DNA of 20,858 nucleotides from a virus. The stretch is from IMG/VR virus record IMGVR_UViG_3300046558_000284, positions 1 to 20,858 of that record. One strand, written 5' to 3'. Below, piece by piece: positions 9,555-20,858 of the stretch. Every line of letters starts with the position of its first letter. The stretch's first letter is position 1. Both the position numbers and the translations under genes were made by a program. The notes beneath the pieces were generated by a model. That model was given only the letters and a program-made list of their open reading frames with translations, did not search any database and was not told the DNA's origin.

Positions 9555-9911
9555 ATGGCCAACGCGGTGAAGGGTGAAGTTTCCTTCAAGATCGAGGGGC
9601 AGGAATTCATTCTGCTCTACGATTTCAATGCGCTCTGCACGATCGAGAACGATCTGGGCGTCGATGTCGCGGAAGTGGGCGACAAACTGGCGAGCCCGAC
9701 CATGATCCGGTCCATCTTCCGTGTCGGCCTGGAAGCTAAGCACGGTCTGATGTCGGATCTTGAAGCGGGCAACATGATCCACCGGCTTGGTGTGCAGCCT
9801 GCGGCCGAGATCATCGCCCAAGCATTCCAGGCGGCGTTCCCCGCACCCGACGCGAGCGCGGAGGGAAAGGCGCAGACGTCGAAGAAGACTGGAACTGGGA
9901 AAGGGCGCTGA
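9555..9911 (+). CDS. Tail assembly chaperone, short form (G-like, GTA gp10/Phage_TAC)
   Basis: A 118-residue protein resembling the gp10 tail chaperone of gene transfer agents: GEVSFKIEGQEFILLYDFNALCTIENDLGV at the N-terminus, then a helical middle with a GLMSDLEAGNMIHRLG segment. Long-tailed phages place this gene between tube and tape measure and make two products through a -1 frameshift. Here the zero frame ends at 9909-9911, while a conserved-looking extension is open in the -1 frame. Codons 104-105 (GGA AAG) lie on the heptamer G GGA AAG. The chaperone coats the tape measure protein during tube assembly and is absent from the virion. Confidence 0.82.
   Translation: MANAVKGEVSFKIEGQEFILLYDFNALCTIENDLGVDVAEVGDKLASPTMIRSIFRVGLEAKHGLMSDLEAGNMIHRLGVQPAAEIIAQAFQAAFPAPDASAEGKAQTSKKTGTGKGR
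9863..9869 (+). other. -1 ribosomal frameshift slippery site GGGAAAG
   Basis: The heptamer is in the correct X XXY YYZ phase of the upstream gene (G9863, GGA 9864-9866, AAG 9867-9869). It is the same heptamer used by lambda G/GT. A -1 slip continues as GGC GCA GAC at 9869 and stays open to TAA at 10199-10201. Confidence 0.85.
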
Positions 9912-10201: not shown

Positions 10202-10206
10202 AATTG

Positions 10207-13200
10207 ATGAGCAGTCCCGCCGTCATTGGCGCTCTTAGGGGCGTCCTTGTCCTGGACACCAATGATTGGGCGCCTGCTGTCACCAAGACGCGGAGCGATC
10301 TTGCCAGTCTGAAAGGGTCGTTCGAGCAGTTGGGGTCGGCCCTGGATGACATGACCCGCAAAATGCGGATTGTGGGTATCAGCATGACGGCGGGTCTGAC
10401 TGTGCCATTGGGCGCGCTGGCAGCGGCTTCGAACAAAACCGCCGGCACGTTCGAAGCCTCAATGAAACGTGTCGAGGCCGCCCTGCAAGGGGTTACCGGC
10501 AAGGAACTCAAGCAGCTGTCGGATCAGGCAAAGTCGCTTGGTCCTGCGGTGGGCAAGGGTGCAACGGACGCGGCGGATGGTATCGAGGCGCTCGGCCTGG
10601 CCGGTGTTGCGACGTCCGACATTCTGGGCGGCGCCCTTAAGGCGACCCTCGACCTTGCCGCTGCCGGCATGGTGAACGTCACCCCTGCGGCTAGCTTGGT
10701 CACCGACGTAATGGGCCAGTTCAAGGCGACCACGGCTGAGCTACCTGCTGTGGTCAACGACGTAGTGGGGGCGCTCGATGCGTCGAAATTCGGCTTTGAG
10801 GATTTCCAGCTTGCCGTAGCGCAGGGCGGCGGCGTCGCGGCGGCAGCCGGCATCAGCTTCCGCGATTTTGCGACAGCGGTCGCTGCCACCAGCACGCAAT
10901 TTAGCAGCGGGTCTGATGCCGGCACCAGCTTCAAAACCTATATTCAAAGCCTTGTGCCGGTGTCGAAGGAAGCCGAGCACGCTATGAAGTTGCTCGGCAT
11001 CGAATTTTTCGATCTCAAGACTGGGCGCATGAAGCCATTGGCCGAGCAGGCCGAGATCCTGCGCAAGGCGCTGGGCAACCTATCGGATAAATCAAAGACC
11101 GAAGCCCTTAAGACCATATTCGGCTCTGACGCGTCGCGCACGGCCATTGCGTTGATGGAAAAGGGACGGCAGGGCATCCTCGACGTCCAGAATGAAATCA
11201 TGCGCGGTGATGTCGGCGCGAAGATCGACAAGCGCCTTGAAGGCGAGGCGGCGGCTAGTCAGCGCGTGGCCAATGCGTTCGAAAGCGTGAAGATCGCCAT
11301 TGGCGAAGCCGGTCTGACTGCGCTCATTACTTCGGTGAAGACTGCTTTTGCCGAGATGCTGGAATCGATCGCTCGCGCTAACCCGGCCATCCTGAAGGTC
11401 GGCGTCATTATCGGGGCACTGGTCGCCGCGCTAGGGCCGCTTGTGGCTGTCCTGGGCATCATGGCGAAGGTCGTATTGGTTCGGTTCGCCAAATCATTCG
11501 GCATTATCGGCCGGGCGATATCGTTCATCGTCGCACCTGCGGAAGCCTTGTTATCGACCTTGCTGGAATTCGGCGCTGCCCGTGCGCTGACCTCTGGTCT
11601 GGGCATGGCTGCGCGGGCCTTTCTAGGCCTGACCGGACCGATAGGCTGGGCGATCGGCGCGTTCCTCTTGTTCAAGGATAGCGTCGTGCCTGCCCTTCAA
11701 CGGGTATGGGGCATCGCAACTCAGGTGCTTGGCCCGCCGCTCGCGGCGCTGTTCGCCCAGGTCGGCGCCGTGGTTGGCAACGTCGTGAACGGGCCGATAG
11801 GCACGGCGTTCGGCGGGTTGATGTCGCTTCTTCGCGGCGTCCTCGACGTCGTCGGCACGATCGTCGCCGGATTGATCGAACTGCTGGGCCTGACGCTGGT
11901 CGCCACCATCAACGTCGCGGTGACGGCCATCAGCGGCATCGTGTCGGTCATCGGCAATGTCGTGCAGGCTGTTTCCGCGCTTCTATCTGGTGATTTCGCC
12001 GGGGCATGGACGGCTGCCGCTGCGGCGGTTGACGCGGCGCTACAGACCATCATCAATGTTGCAGACGCGGTTCTTCCCGGAATCGGCGGCGCGCTGCAAG
12101 CGGTCTACGAAAGCGCAAAGGCCTGGTTGGTCGACGCCTTTGGAGCCGTTGCCGATGGCTTCACATCGCTCGTTGCCGGCGCGGTCAATTGGGTTGCATC
12201 CGCTTTCCCCAATGTCACCGCCGCCGCGAAGGGCGTCTACGAGGGCGTGAAGGGCTGGCTGGTCGACAAGTTCGGCGGTCTGATGACCTGGATCGGTAAC
12301 GCTGCGAAGTGGATCGGTGACAAATATGCGGCGCTGAAAGACCGTCTTGGCCTTGGCGGTGCGAAACCGGATCAATCCGGCGGCGCACCGGCGGCACCGG
12401 CGCCCGTAGCGGCGCCAAGGGCCGCGGCGGGTGTCGGTCGCACTGTCAATTTTGATGATGCTGGCAAAACAAAAAAGGGTGCGAAGGGTCGCAACACCCA
12501 ATATGACGCCGATAACCGTCAGCAACTCCAGATGCAGGCTGAGCTGGAGGCGGCCCGCCTACGTGGCGATCACGCGGCTGAACAGCGCATGCAGGATCAA
12601 CTCGCCCTGTCTCGGCAGATCGAAGCGTATCAGCGGACTGGCATGTCGCTAGACCAGGCCAAGATCGCTGCCAACCGCGACATGAACCTGTTGCAGTCGG
12701 CGCGGACGGCGGCGGTCGCCAAGGAATTGGACGCTGAACGCTTGTCGGTGTCGATCGAGGTCGCGCGCCTCAATCGTGATCAGGCGCTGGTAGATAGTCT
12801 GGAGCGCCAGGAAGAGCTTAAGCGGCGCATCGCCTACTATTATGAGCAGACAAAAAATCTGGCCGAAGCGACGCGCCTGGCTGAGGCCGATCAATTCCGC
12901 ATGGACGAAGCGCGGGCGGCTGTTCGCGCTAGGTGGATCGCCGATGACACGGCCGACAGGGCTTTGCGCCTGGCGCAGGATCGCGGCGACAGCGAAGCCA
13001 AGATCAAATCGCTTCAGCGCGAAATCGATATCCGCACTCGCGCGCGTGAACTGGAGGAAAGCAGGTCGCTCGATCGCAATGCTGCAATCGCCCAGGCCGC
13101 GACCGAATGGGATCAGGAGGACCGCGCTCGCATGGTCGGCAACGTCCGCGCGACTTTCAAAGATGGCATCCGTTCCGCGTTGGACGGCAACATCGGTGAC

Positions 13201-13764
13201 TGGTTCAAGAACTGGTGGCGCGATCGGATAGCGCGCGGGATGGAAGAAGCGATCAATTCACTTGCTGACCTGGTGATGAAGTTATTCTCCAATATCGGCC
13301 GGGGCGGATCGTCCGGCGGCGGTAAGGGGCTGTTCGGTAGCATCCTCGGCGCCGTGGGCGGCCTGTTCGGCGGGGGCAACGCCATCGCCGGATCGCTGGA
13401 GGCTGCATATAGCAACGTCGGTTCCCTGGCCGCCAATCTGAAGCCAGGCTTGATAGATGTGGCGTCGATTCCGGCCTTCAATACGGGAGGATCGTTCAAG
13501 GTCGGCGGCATGTCAGGCGTCGATGCAAACCTCGTGTCGATGCGCCTGACAAAGGGCGAAATGGTCGATATCCGCAAGCCCGGCAACGACAATAGCGGAA
13601 CCGCTCGGGTTCTGGTTGAGCCGTCGCCCTATTTCGAAGCCGTGGTCGACGGCCGAGCGGCCAAGGTTGCCGCCCCGATGTCGGTCGCCTCGGGCATGCA
13701 GGCCCGGTCGGCCGCCGGCAGCGACGCCGCCCGCGCCGCGCGCCGTCGCATTCCCGGAAGGTAA
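10207..13764 (+). CDS. Tail tape measure protein (TP901 core type)
   Basis: An 1185-residue tape measure protein. The N-terminal third has the TP901-type core (ASNKTAGTFEASMKRVEAAL, GATDAADGIEALGLAG, LAAAGMVNVTPAASLVTDVM). Hydrophobic segments span about 399-427 and 519-600, consistent with membrane interaction at DNA ejection. A duplicated VYE..K.WLVD.FG motif lies near residues 633 and 677. A charged helical region follows from about 777, with three 70-residue repeats. The C-terminus has a Gly-rich stretch and then FNTGGSFKVGGMSGVDANL, common in these proteins. At about 1.5 A per residue the tail would be roughly 0.18 micrometres (estimate). ATG 10207 is preferred to TTG 10204; AAGGG lies upstream. 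Confidence 0.92.
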   Translation: MSSPAVIGALRGVLVLDTNDWAPAVTKTRSDLASLKGSFEQLGSALDDMTRKMRIVGISMTAGLTVPLGALAAASNKTAGTFEASMKRVEAALQGVTGKELKQLSDQAKSLGPAVGKGATDAADGIEALGLAGVATSDILGGALKATLDLAAAGMVNVTPAASLVTDVMGQFKATTAELPAVVNDVVGALDASKFGFEDFQLAVAQGGGVAAAAGISFRDFATAVAATSTQFSSGSDAGTSFKTYIQSLVPVSKEAEHAMKLLGIEFFDLKTGRMKPLAEQAEILRKALGNLSDKSKTEALKTIFGSDASRTAIALMEKGRQGILDVQNEIMRGDVGAKIDKRLEGEAAASQRVANAFESVKIAIGEAGLTALITSVKTAFAEMLESIARANPAILKVGVIIGALVAALGPLVAVLGIMAKVVLVRFAKSFGIIGRAISFIVAPAEALLSTLLEFGAARALTSGLGMAARAFLGLTGPIGWAIGAFLLFKDSVVPALQRVWGIATQVLGPPLAALFAQVGAVVGNVVNGPIGTAFGGLMSLLRGVLDVVGTIVAGLIELLGLTLVATINVAVTAISGIVSVIGNVVQAVSALLSGDFAGAWTAAAAAVDAALQTIINVADAVLPGIGGALQAVYESAKAWLVDAFGAVADGFTSLVAGAVNWVASAFPNVTAAAKGVYEGVKGWLVDKFGGLMTWIGNAAKWIGDKYAALKDRLGLGGAKPDQSGGAPAAPAPVAAPRAAAGVGRTVNFDDAGKTKKGAKGRNTQYDADNRQQLQMQAELEAARLRGDHAAEQRMQDQLALSRQIEAYQRTGMSLDQAKIAANRDMNLLQSARTAAVAKELDAERLSVSIEVARLNRDQALVDSLERQEELKRRIAYYYEQTKNLAEATRLAEADQFRMDEARAAVRARWIADDTADRALRLAQDRGDSEAKIKSLQREIDIRTRARELEESRSLDRNAAIAQAATEWDQEDRARMVGNVRATFKDGIRSALDGNIGDWFKNWWRDRIARGMEEAINSLADLVMKLFSNIGRGGSSGGGKGLFGSILGAVGGLFGGGNAIAGSLEAAYSNVGSLAANLKPGLIDVASIPAFNTGGSFKVGGMSGVDANLVSMRLTKGEMVDIRKPGNDNSGTARVLVEPSPYFEAVVDGRAAKVAAPMSVASGMQARSAAGSDAARAARRRIPGR
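12553..13182 (+). repeat. Three 70-residue repeats in the tape measure protein
   Basis: Three units start at residues 783 (ARLRGD), 853 (ARLNRD) and 923 (AQDRGD), exactly 70 residues (210 bp) apart. They align without gaps over at least 40 residues: a D near position 6, a helix with L/I spacing (QDQLALSRQIEAY, ERQEELKRRIAYY, QREIDIRTRAREL), and a final Ala-rich helix. DNA identity is low, so the duplication is old. Confidence 0.75.
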
Positions 13765-13766
13765 TT

Positions 13767-14369
13767 ATGGCAGTCATTGTTATGCCCGATTGGGTGGTGC
13801 CGAACGGTGCCACCCCCTTCCTGCGAGACTTCGGGACCGTGCTGACGCCGTTTTTGGGTGGCCCGGAGCAGCGTATCAACCGCCTCGGCACCCGCTTTGG
13901 CCTGCGCGTCACGTTGCCGTCCATGCCGACGCGCGACAAGGCGCTGATCGTCCAGTCCCGGCTACTGCGGGCACGCGAGGATCGGCTGCGAATGGAGATT
14001 CCGCAGCCCGATTTCGATACGGGCGCGCCCGGCGCTCCGCTGGTGTCGGCGTCGGTCACGTCCGGCACCACGCTTCCGCTGAAAGGTATGACGGCGGGCT
14101 ATACCGTGAAGGAAGGCCAGTTCCTGTCCATCATTCATGCCGGACGATATTATAATTACATCTTCGCGGCGGATGGCACGGTATCGGGCGGTGGCACCCT
14201 GAATGCTGCCATATGGCCGCTGCTGCGAACCTCTCTGTCGGTCAATGATGTGGTGGAGATCGCGGCGCCGAAAATCGAGGGGCTGGTATCGCCGGGCGAA
14301 GAATTGTCCTGGCAGATTTCTGTCGATCGGCTCGCCAGCTTCAGCTTCGCGCTTTCCGAAGGCGCATAG
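13767..14369 (+). CDS. Distal/minor tail protein
   Basis: A 200-residue protein just after the tape measure gene, the place of the distal tail or baseplate hub component. The N-terminus (PDWVVPNGATPFLRDFG) contains a 'W.VP.G..P.LRD.G' pattern. The middle RFGLRVTLPSMPTRD and LIVQSRLLRAREDRLRM suggest a belt-like domain. The C-terminal half is beta-rich, with GMTAGYTVKEGQFLSIIHAG, YYNYIFAADG and an IAAPKIEGLV segment like a small galectin-like or OB barrel. I do not recognise a named family with certainty. The ATG at 13767 has AAGG upstream and lies 2 bases after the tape measure stop. It is followed by the only long gap of the tail operon. Confidence 0.6.
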   Translation: MAVIVMPDWVVPNGATPFLRDFGTVLTPFLGGPEQRINRLGTRFGLRVTLPSMPTRDKALIVQSRLLRAREDRLRMEIPQPDFDTGAPGAPLVSASVTSGTTLPLKGMTAGYTVKEGQFLSIIHAGRYYNYIFAADGTVSGGGTLNAAIWPLLRTSLSVNDVVEIAAPKIEGLVSPGEELSWQISVDRLASFSFALSEGA

Positions 14370-14391
14370 CCGCATATATTGGTATTTAAGT

Positions 14392-14537
14392 TTGCGCTTT
14401 GATGGGTGTTGCCGAGTCAGGTTTAAGGCTGAACCCGAATAAGTAAGGGCGTGACGTGCTAGTTTGGCCGGGTGGCGCACGATAGCCGATACCCGACCAA
14501 CCGTGGGTCCGAATCCCAACCACCTATTGAAGCGCAA
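14392..14537 (+). ncRNA. Candidate structured RNA with class II tRNA-like features
   Basis: A multibranched structure read directly from the sequence. P1 is a continuous 17-bp helix (14392-14408 with 14521-14537, three G-U pairs). P2 is GCC/GGC at 14411-14413 and 14427-14429, with loop GAGTCAGGTTTAA, very like a tRNA-Ser/Leu D arm (A14, G15, G18, G19, A21 equivalents). P3 is a weak CCC/GGG (14434-14436, 14447-14449). P4 is a 9-of-10-bp hairpin (14464-14473 with 14491-14500) with an inner GGC/GCC, like an oversized variable arm. P5 is TGGG/CCCA with 7-nt loop TCCGAAT (14504-14518), like a T arm carrying one change. There is no canonical anticodon arm and no CCA, and it is about 35 nt longer than a tRNA. 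Confidence 0.6.
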
Positions 14538-14547
14538 TTTATCTGAC

Positions 14548-14580
14548 AGGGCTGCCCTCACGGGTGGCCCTTTTTCTTTT
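14548..14580 (+). terminator. Strong intrinsic terminator inside the tail operon
   Basis: A 10-bp stem, AGGGCTGCCC paired with GGGTGGCCCT around the loop TCAC (two G-U pairs), is followed by TTTTTCTTTT. It lies 10 nt after the structured RNA and 11 nt before the next tail gene. No terminator is expected here unless read-through is controlled or the RNA is a separate transcript. Confidence 0.85.
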
Positions 14581-14591
14581 GGGGATCATCC

Positions 14592-15203
14592 TTGGACGCA
14601 ACGCTAAAGAACGCGCTGGCCCAGCCAGCGCCGCTGCTGTTCGGCGCGCTCAGGATTGAGCTGCCTGACTATACGCTTCGCCTGCTGGACGGATCGGCTG
14701 CGCTGATCATCAACGGCGAAACCTATACCGGGCTGGACGCCACGTTCGGCACAATCTCCAGCATCTCCGAACTGACCGAAGAGATTGGCGACAGCGCCCC
14801 GGAAATCACCGTCACGCTGTTCCCGCCCGATGTGAGCGCGACGGCGGTCCTGTCGCACCCGAACATGCAAGGGTGCGTCGCGACGCTGATGGTCGGCGCC
14901 GTGGATGCCACGTCCGGCACCGTCATCGGTCAGCCGGAGATCCTGTTCATTGGCGAGATCGACGTGCCCACGATCGGCATCGATGAGAGCGGCGCGCGGA
15001 CGCTGGAATATACCATCGTCAGCGTGTTCGAGCGGCTGTTCGAGGTCGAGGAAGGCCAGCGCGCCTCCAATGGCTGGCACCAGTCCATCTGGCCCGGTGA
15101 GCGCGGCCTTGAGTTCATGACCGGCACCGATGTCAATCTTTACTGGGGCGTGAAGCCTCCGCTGGGTGCCAATACCTCTCGCACAATGTGGAACGGCAAA
15201 TGA
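14592..15203 (+). CDS. Distal tail / hub protein
   Basis: A 203-residue tail tip component between the distal tail protein and the NlpC/P60-like gene, the position held by the GTA gp13/DUF2163-type hub. Notable pieces are LLFGALRIELPDYTLRLLDG near the start, FGTISSISELTEEIGDSAPEI, SHPNMQGCVATLMVG, a beta segment GEIDVPTIGIDESGARTLEY, and the C-terminal HQSIWPGERGLEF and NLYWG, all features of phage tail hub proteins. The start is a TTG at 14592 with GGGGA about 7 bases upstream. No ATG occurs in frame nearby. Its translation site lies immediately behind the terminator U-tract, so its expression depends on read-through or an unseen promoter. Confidence 0.65.
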   Translation: MDATLKNALAQPAPLLFGALRIELPDYTLRLLDGSAALIINGETYTGLDATFGTISSISELTEEIGDSAPEITVTLFPPDVSATAVLSHPNMQGCVATLMVGAVDATSGTVIGQPEILFIGEIDVPTIGIDESGARTLEYTIVSVFERLFEVEEGQRASNGWHQSIWPGERGLEFMTGTDVNLYWGVKPPLGANTSRTMWNGK

Positions 15204-15616
15204 CCCCACTTGAACGCCGCCACGCCGCGATCGAGGCAACCATGGCCCGCTACCGGGATCGACCCTTCGCATGGGGTAAGGTCGATTGCGCCAAGGTTGT
15301 CGCCTTCCACCTCAAGCGGCTGGGGTACAAGATACTGATCAGCAAGGCGGGGGCATATTCGTCTTCCCTGGGTGCCCACCGTGCCATCAGGCGTATGGGC
15401 TATGACACGCTGCCGCTGCTGCTCGATGGGCTTGGCCTGACCCGCATCCCGTACAGCCGCCTCTTGCTTGGCGATGTCGTGGAGATCGAAGGAGCGCCAC
15501 CCGGCGCCATCGGCCTCTACGCGGGCAACGGAAACATCTTCGGTTTTCACGAAGATCACGATGCACTGGTGACGGTCCAGCCCTCGCAAATCCTGACTGC
15601 CTGGAGCGTCCTGTAA
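15200..15616 (+). CDS. NlpC/P60-like tail peptidase (DUF6950 type)
   Basis: A 138-residue protein of the phage DUF6950/NlpC-P60-like type. The N-terminal RYRDRPFAWGKVDCAKVVAFHLKRLG carries the catalytic-type Cys in a W-G-x-x-D-C context. A His candidate follows in IFGFHEDHDAL, or in the segment GAIGLYAGNGNI typical of the fold. Such proteins sit in the tail tip and may open peptidoglycan for DNA entry. ATG 15200 is chosen because it overlaps the previous stop (ATGA) and has a weak GGAA before it; an in-frame ATG at 15188 has no Shine-Dalgarno. The stop overlaps the next start as TAATG. Activity depends on an unverified catalytic His. Confidence 0.75.
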   Translation: MTPLERRHAAIEATMARYRDRPFAWGKVDCAKVVAFHLKRLGYKILISKAGAYSSSLGAHRAIRRMGYDTLPLLLDGLGLTRIPYSRLLLGDVVEIEGAPPGAIGLYAGNGNIFGFHEDHDALVTVQPSQILTAWSVL

Positions 15617-18600
15617 TGTCGAAGTTTATGCGTACCGCAGCGATGGTCGTCGGCGCGGTCGCGCTGATTGCAGCGACTGCTGGCGCGGCGGCACCTGGTA
15701 TTGCTGGCGCGACCGGTGCTGCTGGTGCAGGCGGCGTAGCGGGTGTGTCCGCAGCCACGCTGACCGCTGTCGGCACTTATGGCGGCCTTGCTGCTGGCGT
15801 ATTGTCTGCCGCCTCTGCTGTCACCGCGCCCGGCATCAGCCAACAGGGTAGCAAGACCAGCTTCACCACGAACCCACAAAGCGGCCTGCCCTATGCGATG
15901 GGTCGCACTCGCATGTCCGGCCTGCGTTTCTTTGCCGATACGAACACGCGCGCGGGCTACACGAAATTCAACGATCTGCTCTGGTTTGGCGCGTTGCTGA
16001 GTATCGGCGGGCAGATCGAGGGTATCGAAAAGTTCACCGGCGATGGCGAACTGGTCACGTTTAATGCAGCCACTGGCAACGCCAACGGCACCTATCGTGA
16101 CTATATGGCCCAGAAGCTGCATCTGGGCGGACCGCAGGCAGCGGCGGTCAACCTGACCCTGATGGGCAGCGGTGCGCCCGGCTGGACCTCCCAGCATAGG
16201 TTGTCTGGCATCACACATGCGATGTGGTGCCTACGCTATAACAAGCAGGGCGAGATGTTTGGCGCGGGGGCGCCTGAGCCTGCCTGGATCGGTAAATGGG
16301 TCAAGGTTTACGACCCGCGCCTCGACAGCACCTATCCCGGCGGTAGCGGATCGTGCCGCGCGCTGAACGAAACCACTTATGTCTGGAGCCAGAATCCCGG
16401 CCTGCACGCGCTGACATGGGCGCTGGGTCGCTGGGAGAACGGCAAGCGTACCTGTGGCATCGGCGCGCCTGTCGCGAATATCCGCGTGGCCGAATTTGTC
16501 GAATGCGCCAACGTCTGTGATGCCAATGCCTGGAAGGTTGGCGGGGTCGAGTGGACCACGGACAGCAAGTGGGACACGCTCAAGCGTATCATGCAAGCTG
16601 GCGGCGCACGCCCGACCCAGACCGGCGCGATGATCGGGTGCCTCGTCTCCGCACCGCGCACGGCCATTGCGACGATCGAGAGTCGTCACCTTCTGGATGG
16701 CCTATCGATCGCCGCGACCAAGAGCCGCCGCGATCGGTTCAACGGCGTCATTCCGCGCTATGTCGATGAAGATAGCGATTGGGCTGTCATTTCTGGCACG
16801 TCGGTCACGGTTCCCGAATTTGTGACCGCTGACAAAGGCCAGCGCACCAAGGAAATCGATTATCCTCTGGTGCAGGTGTTCGCGGGCGAAACTGCCATCC
16901 AACCCGGTCAGCTGGCGGCCTATGACATCGTCAACAGCCGTGAAGCTGGGCCAATCACCTGGACCACCGGGCCGGAATGGATCGGCCTGAAGACCGGCGA
17001 TGTCATCTACCTGAATGTGCCAGAGGAAGGGCTGGTCAATCAGCCGGTCCTCATCACGCGCCGCGCGCCCGATCCATCGACAGGCAAGGTATCGTTCGCG
17101 GCCGAGACGGAAACCTATTCCAAGCACGCCTATGCGCTGGGGCAAAGCACGACACCGCCCGCACCATTCAGCTTGACCGCACCCGACCTGAAGCCGTCCG
17201 CGCCTCTTGCGGCCAACTGGTCGGTTTCGGGCAGCACGACAGGCGAAGGGTTGCCCTGTGTGGTATTGGCGGGGTCGTCTGAACACCCGTCAGCTGAAGC
17301 CATCCTTGTCGATTATCGGATCGCTGGCGATGCAGAATGGTCGCAGTCGGCCATCCTGCCCGCGACAGCCGATGTCCTGCATACGATCGCGCCTCTGGCA
17401 TCGCAGACCTTATATGAGGTCAGGATAGGCTATCGGGTCGGTGCCTATGACGGCCTCTATACGGTTCTTCCGGCTGTTCTGAGTGGCGCTGGCAAGCTTT
17501 CCACGATTGAGGAAGGCGCGACCGTCGGCGCCACGCCTGAACAGGCAGCGCAGATCGATCTGCTCGAAGAGGACATCGCTACCGCCCAACAGCAGATCGC
17601 CGATCTGTTCGACACCTATGGCGACAGCGCAAGCGCGGCGGCTTCGGCCTCGGCGGCCGCCCTGTCGGCACAATCGGCACAGGGCTATTCCAGCACCGCC
17701 AGTGCGGCGTCGGCCAATGCCGGGACGGCGCGGGATCAGGCGGAGGCGGCCTTTGTCGCAGCGGATGCCGCGAAGGTCAGTGCGCTGGCGGCCAAGGGCG
17801 ATGCGCTGGCGGCCTTCACCGGTTCGGCCACCGCGCGCGACGCCGCGATTGCCGCGCGCACGGCGTCGGAGACGGCGCGCAATCAGGCGCAGACCTATGC
17901 GACCAATGCGTCGGGATCGGCGGCGGCGTCGGCCGGATCGGCCAGCAATGCGGCAACCAGCGCCAACGAGGCAGGCGATAATGCCTCGGCTGCCGCCGCC
18001 AGCGTGGTCGCGGCGTCGTCCGGCGCGGAGAATGCGTCCTTTCTCGATATCGCCCTGGTCGCGGATTTCTCCACCGGCGGGGTCCATAGTTTCACGGCCT
18101 TCGGCGCGACTCTGGCTGGCGGGACTGGCGGAGCGATCGTCACCTCGACATCAAGCGACCCCTATATCATGCGCGCGGGGCTGTCCTTCGCCGGTAGCCG
18201 CTTCACCCGCGTCATCATCGACCTGACACGCACGGCTTCCCGCACGTCCGGCGGTTGGGATGGCGCGCTCTATTGGGCGACGGCGGGCCATAGCTGGAAT
18301 AGCAGTTACCGGTGCTTTGCCACCGGCGCGACCGATCCGGTGTTGAACCGGCGGACGCAACTGACATTCGATCTGCCCAATGCCCAGTTTGGAGCCTCCG
18401 ACTGGACGGGCAGCACGATTACCGGCCTGCGCTTCGACACCGATGGGGGCAATGGTGGTGCGTTTGCCATTCACTCGATCCGGGTGGTCGGCCCCGATGG
18501 GCTGGCCCCGGCGAATGCGGCCACGGCGGCAGCGAGCAGCGCGGCAAGCGCCGCCACCTCCGCCGGTGCGGCCGGTACGTCGGCGACAGCGGCCCAGACC

Positions 18601-20858
18601 AGCGCGACAGCGGCGAACACCAGTGCGGGCAACGCCTCAACCTCCGCCTCGCAGGCCAGCACCAGCGCGACCAACGCCGCCGGATCGGCCTCGACTGCAT
18701 CGACACAGGCGGGCGCGGCGGCAAACTCTGCCCTCGCGGCGGGCAACAGCGCCACGGCGGCCAGCGGATACGCCAGCACGGCGGCGACCAAGGCCACCGA
18801 GGCGGGCAACAGCGCGTCAGCCGCAGCGGCCAGCGCGGTATCGGCGCAGTCCAGCTTCACCGCGACGCAGGCGACGATCGCCAACCAGTCGCAGGCGCTG
18901 CCGTTCGATTTCAGCGATGGCCTTGCCTATTGGACCAATGAACGGGTGGGCAATCCCAATGTGGTGCCCCGGCCCGTCAGCACCACCGTCATTGACGGGG
19001 ACGCCTCATTCGGGCGCTGCGTCGAGATCAGCAACTGGACGACCGTTGGTCAGAACCTGATGACGCGGGGTGTAGTCCCGGCAATAGCGGGCCGCTTTTA
19101 CGAGATCCGCGCCCGGTTCAAGGTCGTGGCGGGCGATGGGGCCTATTCGTTCAACTTCACCTGCGCCGGACTGGACGCAGCCTATGCGGGGAACGGCGCT
19201 TTTGCCACATTCTCGCCTTCGGTCGCGGTCACAGGGTCCGGCGTTGTCGAACTCTCCGCGCTGTTTTCCAATAGCGCCGCCAATGGTGCGATAGCCTGGG
19301 TAGCCGGCGCGACCTATCTGCGGCTTGGCCTGCGGCTGGATAGCAGTGAAGTGGGCATGGTCCCGCGCGTCCAGTCGATCCGCGTCACCGATGTCACCGA
19401 ACGGCTGGCCGCTGCCAACAGCGCGTCGGCGGCGGCGACATCAGCATCGGCGGCGCAGACGAGCGCCACGTCGGCAGGCAGCAGCGCGTCATCGGCCTCG
19501 ACCGCCGCCAACACGGCGACCAGTCGGGCGACCGAAGCGGCCAACAGCGCCACCGCCGCATCGAACAGCGCGTCGAGCGCCGCCACGGCGGCCACCAATG
19601 CAGGCAATAGTGCGTCGGCGGCCCAGACCAGCGCGACGGCAGCGAATACCAGCGCGGGCAACGCCTCCACCTCCGCCGGACAGGCCAGCACCAGCGCGAC
19701 CAATGCCGCCGGATCGGCCTCGACCGCATCCACGCAGGCGAGCAACGCCGCGAACAGCGCGCTGTCTGCGGGCAATAGCGCCTCGGCGGCCAGCGGTTCG
19801 GCCAGCACCGCATCGACCAGGGCGACCGAAGCGGGCAATTCAGCGTCAGCGGCGGCGGCAAGCGCTGTGACGGCCTCCTCCGGTAGTGAAAACGCGTCCT
19901 TCCTCGATATCGCCCTGGTCGCGGATTTCTCCACCGGTGGGGTCCATAGTTTCACGGCCTTCGGCGCGACCCTTGCCGGGGGCACTGGCGGAGCGATCGT
20001 CACCTCGACATCGAGCGACCCCTATATCACGCGCACGGGGCTGTCCTTCGCAGGCAGCCGCTTCACCCGCGTCATCATCGACCTGACGCGCACGGCTTCC
20101 CGCACGTCCGGTGGTTGGGATGGCACGCTCTACTGGGCGACGGCGGGGCATAGCTGGAATAGCAGTTACCGATGCCCTGCCACCGGCGCGACCGATCCGG
20201 TGTTGAACCGGCGGACGCAACTGACATTCGATCTGCCCAATGCCCAGTTTGGAGCCTCCGACTGGACGGGCAGCACGATTACGGGCCTGCGCTTCGACCC
20301 CGATGGTGGCCCCGCTGGCGCGTTCGCCATCCACTCGATCCGCGTGGTCGGCCCCGATGGGCTGGCCCCGGCGAACGCCGCCACGGCGGCATCGGCCAGT
20401 GCATCATCCGCTGCGACCTCAGCCAGCAGCGCCAGTAACAGCGCGACCGCTGCATCGAACAGCGCCAACACCGCAACCACCCAGGCGGGCAGCGCATCCT
20501 CATCCGCCAGCAGTGCATCGACATCCGCCGCCAACGCCAACAGTTCGGCGGTCAACGCCTCCAACAGCGCCACCGCCGCCAGCGGCCATGCCAATACCGC
20601 GCAGATCAGGGCGAACGATTCTGCCTCGTCGGCGTCGTCGGCATCAACCAGCGCCAGTGCCGCCAGTGCGTCTGCTGCTTCGGCCAGCACCTCGGCCAGC
20701 AATGCGTCGTCCTTCGCGGGGCAGGCCAGCAGCAATGCGGCCACGGCATCGAATGCAGCGACGGTCGCGACCGACGCTGCCAGCGCAGCGCAGACCAGCG
20801 CTACGGTGTCGGCTCAGGTGGGGGCCGCATCGATTAACCCGAACCCGGTGTTCGCAAA
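15616..20858 (+). CDS. Giant tail tip / host-recognition fibre protein (partial, cut by right edge)
   Basis: At least 1747 residues, open to the window's right edge. Residues 1-75 are Ala/Gly-rich and hydrophobic, a membrane-type or insertion segment usual in such tip proteins. Next is GLPYAMGRTRMSGLRFF (about 94-110), the start of the conserved tail-hub body found in alphaproteobacterial phages. The body runs to about residue 665 and includes fibronectin-like segments (TLYEVRIGYRVGAYDGLYT). The rest alternates rods of alanine heptads with globular beta modules: rod (670-804), module A1 (805-962), rod (967-1078), module B (1096-1262), rod (1268-1421), module A2 (1425-1582), rod (1587-1733), then INPNPVFA beginning another module. 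ATG 15616 overlaps the preceding stop. Confidence 0.82.
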   Translation, partial: MSKFMRTAAMVVGAVALIAATAGAAAPGIAGATGAAGAGGVAGVSAATLTAVGTYGGLAAGVLSAASAVTAPGISQQGSKTSFTTNPQSGLPYAMGRTRMSGLRFFADTNTRAGYTKFNDLLWFGALLSIGGQIEGIEKFTGDGELVTFNAATGNANGTYRDYMAQKLHLGGPQAAAVNLTLMGSGAPGWTSQHRLSGITHAMWCLRYNKQGEMFGAGAPEPAWIGKWVKVYDPRLDSTYPGGSGSCRALNETTYVWSQNPGLHALTWALGRWENGKRTCGIGAPVANIRVAEFVECANVCDANAWKVGGVEWTTDSKWDTLKRIMQAGGARPTQTGAMIGCLVSAPRTAIATIESRHLLDGLSIAATKSRRDRFNGVIPRYVDEDSDWAVISGTSVTVPEFVTADKGQRTKEIDYPLVQVFAGETAIQPGQLAAYDIVNSREAGPITWTTGPEWIGLKTGDVIYLNVPEEGLVNQPVLITRRAPDPSTGKVSFAAETETYSKHAYALGQSTTPPAPFSLTAPDLKPSAPLAANWSVSGSTTGEGLPCVVLAGSSEHPSAEAILVDYRIAGDAEWSQSAILPATADVLHTIAPLASQTLYEVRIGYRVGAYDGLYTVLPAVLSGAGKLSTIEEGATVGATPEQAAQIDLLEEDIATAQQQIADLFDTYGDSASAAASASAAALSAQSAQGYSSTASAASANAGTARDQAEAAFVAADAAKVSALAAKGDALAAFTGSATARDAAIAARTASETARNQAQTYATNASGSAAASAGSASNAATSANEAGDNASAAAASVVAASSGAENASFLDIALVADFSTGGVHSFTAFGATLAGGTGGAIVTSTSSDPYIMRAGLSFAGSRFTRVIIDLTRTASRTSGGWDGALYWATAGHSWNSSYRCFATGATDPVLNRRTQLTFDLPNAQFGASDWTGSTITGLRFDTDGGNGGAFAIHSIRVVGPDGLAPANAATAAASSAASAATSAGAAGTSATAAQTSATAANTSAGNASTSASQASTSATNAAGSASTASTQAGAAANSALAAGNSATAASGYASTAATKATEAGNSASAAAASAVSAQSSFTATQATIANQSQALPFDFSDGLAYWTNERVGNPNVVPRPVSTTVIDGDASFGRCVEISNWTTVGQNLMTRGVVPAIAGRFYEIRARFKVVAGDGAYSFNFTCAGLDAAYAGNGAFATFSPSVAVTGSGVVELSALFSNSAANGAIAWVAGATYLRLGLRLDSSEVGMVPRVQSIRVTDVTERLAAANSASAAATSASAAQTSATSAGSSASSASTAANTATSRATEAANSATAASNSASSAATAATNAGNSASAAQTSATAANTSAGNASTSAGQASTSATNAAGSASTASTQASNAANSALSAGNSASAASGSASTASTRATEAGNSASAAAASAVTASSGSENASFLDIALVADFSTGGVHSFTAFGATLAGGTGGAIVTSTSSDPYITRTGLSFAGSRFTRVIIDLTRTASRTSGGWDGTLYWATAGHSWNSSYRCPATGATDPVLNRRTQLTFDLPNAQFGASDWTGSTITGLRFDPDGGPAGAFAIHSIRVVGPDGLAPANAATAASASASSAATSASSASNSATAASNSANTATTQAGSASSSASSASTSAANANSSAVNASNSATAASGHANTAQIRANDSASSASSASTSASAASASAASASTSASNASSFAGQASSNAATASNAATVATDAASAAQTSATVSAQVGAASINPNPVFA
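17623..18018 (+). repeat. Alanine-heptad rod 1 of the fibre
   Basis: About 130 residues of Ala/Ser-rich sequence in a 7-residue rhythm with Ala mostly at two positions 3 and 4 apart. It is less regular than the later rods, with more charged residues (for example TARDQAE). Confidence 0.7.
18028..18530 (+). repeat. Fibre module A, copy 1
   Basis: A 503-bp direct repeat with 19888-20390 (offset 1860 bp, exactly 620 codons). By hand I count about 35 differences, near 93% identity, most of them synonymous. It encodes a beta-rich module (SFLDIALVADFSTGGVHSF to HSIRVVGPDG) that looks like a carbohydrate-binding jelly roll. Confidence 0.9.
18514..18849 (+). repeat. Alanine-heptad rod 2 of the fibre (16 heptads)
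   Basis: Sixteen consecutive 21-bp units, each encoding x-x-Ala-x-x-Ala-x (for example TSATAAN, TSAGNAS, GSASTAS), from residue 967 to 1078. Confidence 0.85.
18589..18711 (+). repeat. 123-bp rod repeat, copy 1
   Basis: About 90% identical to 19618-19740 by hand count (12 differences). It encodes 41 residues with one change (S to G). The offset of 1029 bp is exactly 49 heptads. Confidence 0.85.
19417..19878 (+). repeat. Alanine-heptad rod 3 of the fibre (22 heptads)
   Basis: Twenty-two consecutive heptads from residue 1268 to 1421 with Ala at positions 3 and 6 throughout (for example NSASAAA, TSATSAG, TRATEAG). Confidence 0.88.
19618..19740 (+). repeat. 123-bp rod repeat, copy 2
   Basis: The partner of 18589-18711, lying inside rod 3. 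Confidence 0.85.
19888..20390 (+). repeat. Fibre module A, copy 2
   Basis: The partner of 18028-18530. Seven amino acid differences are seen: M852T, A854T, A884T, F901P, T942P, N946P and G947A (copy 1 numbering). The last three cluster in one loop. Confidence 0.9.
20374..20814 (+). repeat. Alanine-heptad rod 4 of the fibre (21 heptads)
   Basis: Twenty-one heptads from residue 1587 to 1733. Ala is at position 3 always and at position 6 in all but two (IRANDSA, TSATVSA, where Ser replaces it). Confidence 0.85.

Follow-up and report, generated by a model that had tools for sequence, protein, structure and literature searches.

Non-decoding tRNA-like RNAs and phage tRNAs

Only a few tRNA-like RNAs that do not decode are known, namely tmRNA, YrlA, the 3' ends of some plant viruses and the rnaC and rnaD RNAs of phage T4, and several of these revealed new biology. 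In YrlA, a tRNA-like domain sits atop a longer closed stem. The RNA described here shares such a domain, and an extended closed stem without CCA, with YrlA (RF02553); unlike YrlA, it has a pseudoknot. A tRNA-like elbow combined with a pseudoknot is also found in tmRNA (RF00023 and relatives), but the phage RNA differs from tmRNA in having no tag ORF, no CCA, a single pseudoknot and a real 3-bp D stem. The T4 rnaC and rnaD RNAs (species 1 and 2 RNA) are stable phage RNAs with a T-arm-like end, annotated without function. They lack the motif of our family, and rnaC scores only 14.3 bits with our covariance model via its T arm and acceptor. Homology to Y RNA or to rnaC/rnaD has the support of neither sequence nor model. 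A different use of tRNA by phages is seen in T5 and T6, whose tRNA-Tyr counters tRNA-targeting defence (retron-Eco7/Septu) (PMC13096335). There, too, the phage supplies a class II tRNA-like molecule (PMC13096335); however, those are real tRNAs, whereas the RNA described here is incapable of decoding.

A structured RNA in a siphophage tail operon

The window, that is, the whole stretch of DNA analysed, is the 20,858-base IMG/VR virus record IMGVR_UViG_3300046558_000284 (positions 1-20,858). It carries siphophage late genes for terminase, capsid, major tail protein, tape measure and Dit. Because its closest relatives by late-gene proteins include prophages of Sphingobium and Novosphingobium, the host of this phage is likely a sphingomonad. 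A structured RNA of about 146 nt lies at 14392-14537 on the plus strand, between the genes for Dit and a phrog_2048 tail protein. Its parts and neighbours are as follows:

10204-13764, tape measure gene
13767-14369, plus strand, Dit (distal tail protein, phrog_1302), upstream neighbour and left edge of the cargo slot
14392-14408, plus strand, 5' strand of the acceptor-like helix P1; the seven core-side bases, 14402-14408, are the acceptor equivalent
14409-14410, plus strand, linker equivalent to tRNA positions 8-9; U8 is invariant (alignment A3/A4)
14411-14429, plus strand, D arm with a 3-bp stem, GCC/GGC (GCY/RGC in most members)
14434-14449, plus strand, hairpin at the anticodon position, with a 3-bp stem and the 10-nt loop GAATAAGTAA
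14455-14460, plus strand, 5' strand of predicted pseudoknot stem X, partner 14476-14481; five of six possible pairs form in the window
14464-14473, plus strand, 5' strand of predicted pseudoknot stem Y, inside the stem X loop, partner 14491-14500
14476-14481, plus strand, 3' strand of stem X; the pairs formed in the window are 14455-14459 with 14477-14481
14482-14490, plus strand, loop 3 of the pseudoknot, reading ATAGCCGAT; most members have ATANCCRAT here, and its A/C/AU positions are invariant
14491-14500, plus strand, 3' strand of stem Y
14503-14519, plus strand, T arm; the G53, C56, A58 and C61 equivalents are invariant, and position 55 is C in the window
14521-14537, plus strand, 3' strand of P1, without a free CCA end
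14548-14579, plus strand, intrinsic terminator downstream of the RNA, with a 10-bp stem and a T tract
14592-15203, plus strand, tail protein phrog_2048, downstream neighbour and right edge of the cargo slot

The closing helix is exact over 17 uninterrupted base pairs (14392-14408 with 14521-14537, three G-U pairs included), just as the original prediction had described it. Its two strands alone fold at -27.5 kcal/mol and the whole 146-nt segment at -59.2 kcal/mol (z = -3.3), values reached by 0/200 shuffles in either case; the minimum free energy fold of the single sequence misses the D arm and the pseudoknot. The D-like arm, the hairpin of 3 bp and 10 nt and the T-like arm had also been placed correctly, and homologues support them. 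By contrast, what had been read as a 14-nt linker followed by a 37-nt variable hairpin is one pseudoknot, both stems of which covary strongly; judged from this comparison, the variable arm is an H-type pseudoknot. The letters of the central hairpin loop in the window have also been given as GAAUAAGUAA, and the family consensus of this 10-nt loop is GAAYAAGUAA, which is near-invariant.

The phrog_2048 tail gene is followed by a gene for a DUF6950 protein, and the window ends within a very long tail-fibre-like gene (15616-20858) with Ala/Ser/Thr-rich repeats, which is open at the window end. An Rfam match to isrG within this repetitive gene (15624-15880) was sub-threshold (26.8 vs 100 bits) and was rejected.

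Homologues and their carriers

A blastn search of the window RNA against plasmids returned a single plasmid with a member, pRlX5 of Rhizobium leguminosarum (L058; 72% identity, E = 8e-5). The central string common to the window and L058, CCGAATAAGTAAGG, was used to pull further members from IMG/VR, and a looser pattern around the central hairpin brought in additional ones. Beyond the window, the searches yielded eight distinct members: L058 from the Rhizobium plasmid and seven types from IMG/VR virus contigs. The full set is the window, L058, L071, L088, L107, L132/L133, L134, L139 and L141; L081, L094 and L108 are nearly identical to L071. The D arm, hairpin, pseudoknot and T arm occur in one order in all members, and the search patterns held only the hairpin, with the other shared parts lying outside them. 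Pattern matches L130, L131, L135-L138, L140 and L142-L146 have no D or T arms and were set aside as chance. Scans of viral_contigs with exact patterns of the window D arm or of the full motif returned nothing, because the other members differ in those parts.

Since seven of the eight homologues (all but L058) were found via the hairpin motif, the invariance of the central hairpin is partly a product of construction and is to some extent overstated. There are only two signs of real constraint on it: the C/U change at its position 4, and the retention of the CC/GG stem in all true matches when the stem was left free.

The RNA family is rare and is carried by mobile elements, including unrelated phages. 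No member was found in GenBank phages, in 398 Sphingomonadaceae genomes, in 398 Pseudomonadota genomes or, using the covariance model, in 289 alphaproteobacterial genomes, and no description of the RNA was found in the literature searched. One carrier, of 116 kb, encodes a DNA polymerase and a ribonucleotide reductase and appears to be a lytic phage. The L107 record also carries a probable amber-suppressor tRNA (9596-9671, plus strand; anticodon CTA, reading UAG; called tRNA-Pyl by ARAGORN). In L139 (5994-6200), the motif GTGTAAACAC is present as inverted copies around the RNA and its terminator, with a third copy beyond; these copies may mark an operator or the end of an element.

Covariation across the family

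Eight members were aligned (alignment A3), and L107 was excluded because its D loop contains an additional hairpin. The structure scored comprised P1, the D arm, the central hairpin, stems X and Y and the T arm. With this structure 88.6% of pairs are standard, and compensatory changes on both sides are found at 23 of 34 pairs. The covariation score was 0.606, compared with 0.187±0.030 for shuffled alignments (0/500 as high) and at most 0.132 for slid pairings. The pseudoknot alone scored 0.788, compared with 0.217±0.048 for shuffled (0/500) and at most 0.123 for slid pairings. Stem X has compensatory changes at four of its six pairs (variants include CGTGC/GCACG, CCGTC/GACGG, CTGAC/GTCAG, TTGGC/GCCAA and CGCGC/GCGCG) and stem Y at eight of ten; stem Y is in register and gapless in 8/8 aligned members. 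In the central hairpin, the outer pair of the stem shows a C-G/G-C swap in L058. A covariance model derived from the eight aligned members recovered the excluded L107 with a score of 74.1 bits (E = 1.7e-18, covariance-model E-values being rough).

The extended closing helix varies more in form. In most members P1 reaches 10-17 bp, and its pairing is mostly interrupted by a bulge or an internal loop some 4-6 bp away from the core. It extends past the acceptor equivalent, beating all 200 shuffles, in eight of nine members; the weak case is L088, where 14/200 shuffles were as good. A free CCA after P1 is absent in all nine. Thus, the two features that the original prediction had proposed to look for in homologues, covariation and retention of a helix of this type, are both present, the former at the 23 compensatory pairs and the latter in the eight members.

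Likeness to tRNA-Ser

Comparison of the members indicates that the RNA follows a class II tRNA plan and is most like tRNA-Ser. An elbow alignment of all nine members, made after cutting out the D-loop hairpin of L107, shows that the equivalents of U8, A14, G15, G18, G19, C48, G53, C56, A58 and C61 are invariant (9/9), A14, G15, G18 and G19 being those in the D loop. These positions, nearly all of the tertiary-consensus set, are bases that hold the tRNA elbow together. When 289 alphaproteobacterial genomes were searched with the model, the best non-member matches were host tRNAs at 30-37 bits, and the top 20 were all tRNA-Ser according to ARAGORN. Among the 46 tRNAs of Sphingobium faniae, tRNA-Ser(UGA) is the best match to both arms in the window, scoring 15 of 22 with the D arm and 17 of 21 with the T arm. 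It also ranks first for L133 and L141, and for L139 with a tie in the T-arm score. For L071 and L088, the likeness to tRNA-Ser is weak when measured against Sphingobium tRNAs, which are possibly not those of their hosts.

The resemblance thus covers the order of elements, the sequence of the D and T arms, the tertiary bases of the elbow and the place of the variable arm: the central hairpin is at the position of the anticodon arm, and the pseudoknot is at that of the long variable arm of tRNA-Ser. Unlike tRNA-Ser, the RNA has no anticodon arm of 5 bp and 7 nt, a pseudoknot replaces the variable hairpin, and the acceptor is a closed extended helix without CCA. A tRNA interrupted by an intron was considered and rejected, as the sequence around the central hairpin shows no anticodon stem of 5 bp. 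ARAGORN calls no tRNA gene at the RNA locus, and the Rfam tRNA model matches neither the window nor the homologues.

The RNA also looks to be outside every family catalogued in Rfam 15 (4227 models). No match over the RNA was obtained in the window (E<=5), in L071, L088 and L107 (E<=1) or in L132, L134, L139 and L141 (E<=2). The original prediction of a tRNA-like RNA of unknown family therefore stands, now with tRNA-Ser as its type: the members tested gave no reportable Rfam 15 match, and neither a confident match to a known family nor an ARAGORN tRNA call emerged.

A free-standing gene in a cargo slot

In many relatives of the window phage, the Dit and phrog_2048 genes overlap or abut, with a gap of -1 to +20 bases. 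In others the gap is filled by a gene for a membrane protein of 141-172 aa without a Pfam match (e.g., L017, L018, L019, L024, L026, L027 and L047), and in L013/L044 by such a gene together with an HTH/ParE toxin-antitoxin pair. Seen across the window (14369-14592) and the equivalent gap in L013-L047, this slot is empty or holds a membrane protein, an HTH/ParE pair or the RNA. Because relatives hold accessory protein genes there, the window slot is a cargo slot that carries an RNA. The window terminator is 90% identical over 51 nt to that of L017/L018, where a protein gene precedes it. No upstream match to the sigma-70 promoter was found in the window at consensus level; the terminator is present. 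Downstream terminators were also recognised by eye in L139, L141, L088 and L107.

Other members place the RNA differently. In L134 (record G694), it is in the same slot on the opposite strand, between proteins 45% and 36% identical to those of the window, which indicates a free-standing gene. In L088, the RNA is antisense to both neighbours, and in L133 the RNA and a DUF1353 gene converge, with a few bases between the RNA and the stop codon of that gene. In L141 (G696), it is flanked by genes for replication initiation and for the small terminase (TerS), which it precedes, and in L132 (G692) it lies near a repressor-like gene. Neither a neighbour gene conserved across the member loci nor a partner protein was found. 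The tail-operon location that had been proposed is thus right for the window and fails as a general rule, being one of several. By these comparisons the RNA appears to be a free-standing, non-coding "moron", in keeping with a slot that is empty (0-20 bp gap) or differently filled in close relatives.

Proposed function and alternatives

The loss of the anticodon arm and the acceptor end, with the elbow kept, means that the RNA cannot translate. That the elbow is conserved while the helices vary freely is an argument that something reads its shape, and a specific second contact is indicated by the near-invariant loop GAAYAAGUAA and by the loops of the pseudoknot. Most simply, we suggest, the RNA is a mimic that competes with class II tRNA for a protein. 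In its specific form, a trans-acting mimic of tRNA-Ser that competes with tRNA for a host protein, we hold it tentatively, at somewhat short of even probability. A separate RNA would be transcribed from its own gene and would offer its elbow and the surface of its variable region to a host protein able to recognise class II tRNAs; the conserved loop and pseudoknot would inhibit or occupy that protein. Candidate partners may be a tRNA-targeting antiphage effector, seryl-tRNA synthetase or a tRNA-processing enzyme. Comparison of the members supports the fold, the pseudoknot, the tRNA-Ser likeness, the independence of neighbours and the distribution over phages and mobile elements. The mimic or phage small RNA that the original prediction had listed among its options is thereby supported, and its separate transcription, its action in trans and its competition with tRNA are what we infer.

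It is conceivable, though doubtful, that the RNA serves counter-defence and stands for a new class of phage RNA inhibitor, as a tRNA-Ser impostor that is mobile cargo of unrelated phages and disarms a factor that handles or attacks serine tRNAs.

An unlikely alternative is a base-pairing small RNA, in which the exposed GAAYAAGUAA would pair with a transcript of the host or the phage, the tRNA-like body serving stability only. In favour of this, no segment is more constrained than the loop, and a body of this shape would shield the RNA from nucleases; yet nearly all the elbow tertiary bases and a 16-bp pseudoknot are kept, which goes beyond what stability needs.

It is also rather unlikely that the RNA is a scaffold or sensor like YrlA, with a tRNA-like domain on a long closed stem gripped by a protein that it tethers or gates. 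The layout is the same in principle: eight of the nine members have a long P1, which usually shows an irregularity 4-6 bp away from the core. However, the YrlA model RF02553 has no match in the window record and none above cut-off in any member record, and the nine phage records, most of them fragments, contain no Ro/TROVE gene. A TROVE gene does occur on the Rhizobium plasmid, about 371 kb from the RNA, and it has a weak YrlA-like neighbour of its own: on NZ_CP140867.1 (pRlX5), the TROVE/Ro gene at 481963-483063 has a weak YrlA-like match (30.6 bits) directly upstream. The two are likely a Ro/Y RNA pair of their own, distinct from the RNA family described here.

A tmRNA-like role, with the RNA entering stalled ribosomes, is improbable. 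An elbow and an H-type pseudoknot do occur together, and in one carrier, the 116-kb phage (record G691), a permuted tmRNA lies about 4 kb from the RNA (L170:14185-14401, minus strand; RF04321, 51.6 bits against a gathering cut-off of 47; also called a tmRNA by ARAGORN). Against this, the RNA itself matches no tmRNA covariance model, lacks CCA and has a real D stem, and the alignment contains no conserved tag reading frame. The start-to-stop string GTG ACG TGC TAG at the base of the pseudoknot (window 14452-14463) was rejected as a minimal ORF (NTG-NNN-NNC-TAR): the start of this three-codon string is present in only six of nine members and the TAR stop in eight.

A cis-acting role in the tail operon, as a processing signal, an attenuator or a 3' end stabiliser, is highly improbable. 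Although the window RNA lies just ahead of an operon-internal terminator, the same terminator occurs in relatives in which a protein gene replaces the RNA, and the opposite-strand (L134), antisense (L088) and convergent (L133, with the DUF1353 gene) copies, together with the other loci, speak against it. Finally, a decayed phage tRNA or the relic of a tRNA-derived attachment site, the former also an option in the original prediction, has a clear sequence likeness to tRNA-Ser and the commonness in phages of tRNAs and att copies of tRNA ends in its favour, but it is refuted, to the point of being negligible, by extensive compensatory change across members, a pseudoknot foreign to tRNA, a near-invariant non-tRNA hairpin and several genomic locations away from integration modules.

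Implications

Phages have kept this well-supported fold while exchanging most of its base pairs, and one loop is almost letter-perfect. The RNA appears to represent a new type of tRNA impostor in viruses, and the mimic reading raises the question of which of the host factors recognising serine tRNA the phage needs to occupy. The slots in which phages carry accessory genes can hold RNA genes, and these are overlooked by gene callers. If the counter-defence reading were true, phages would be countering defence with an RNA that mimics tRNA, in place of a protein or a spare tRNA.
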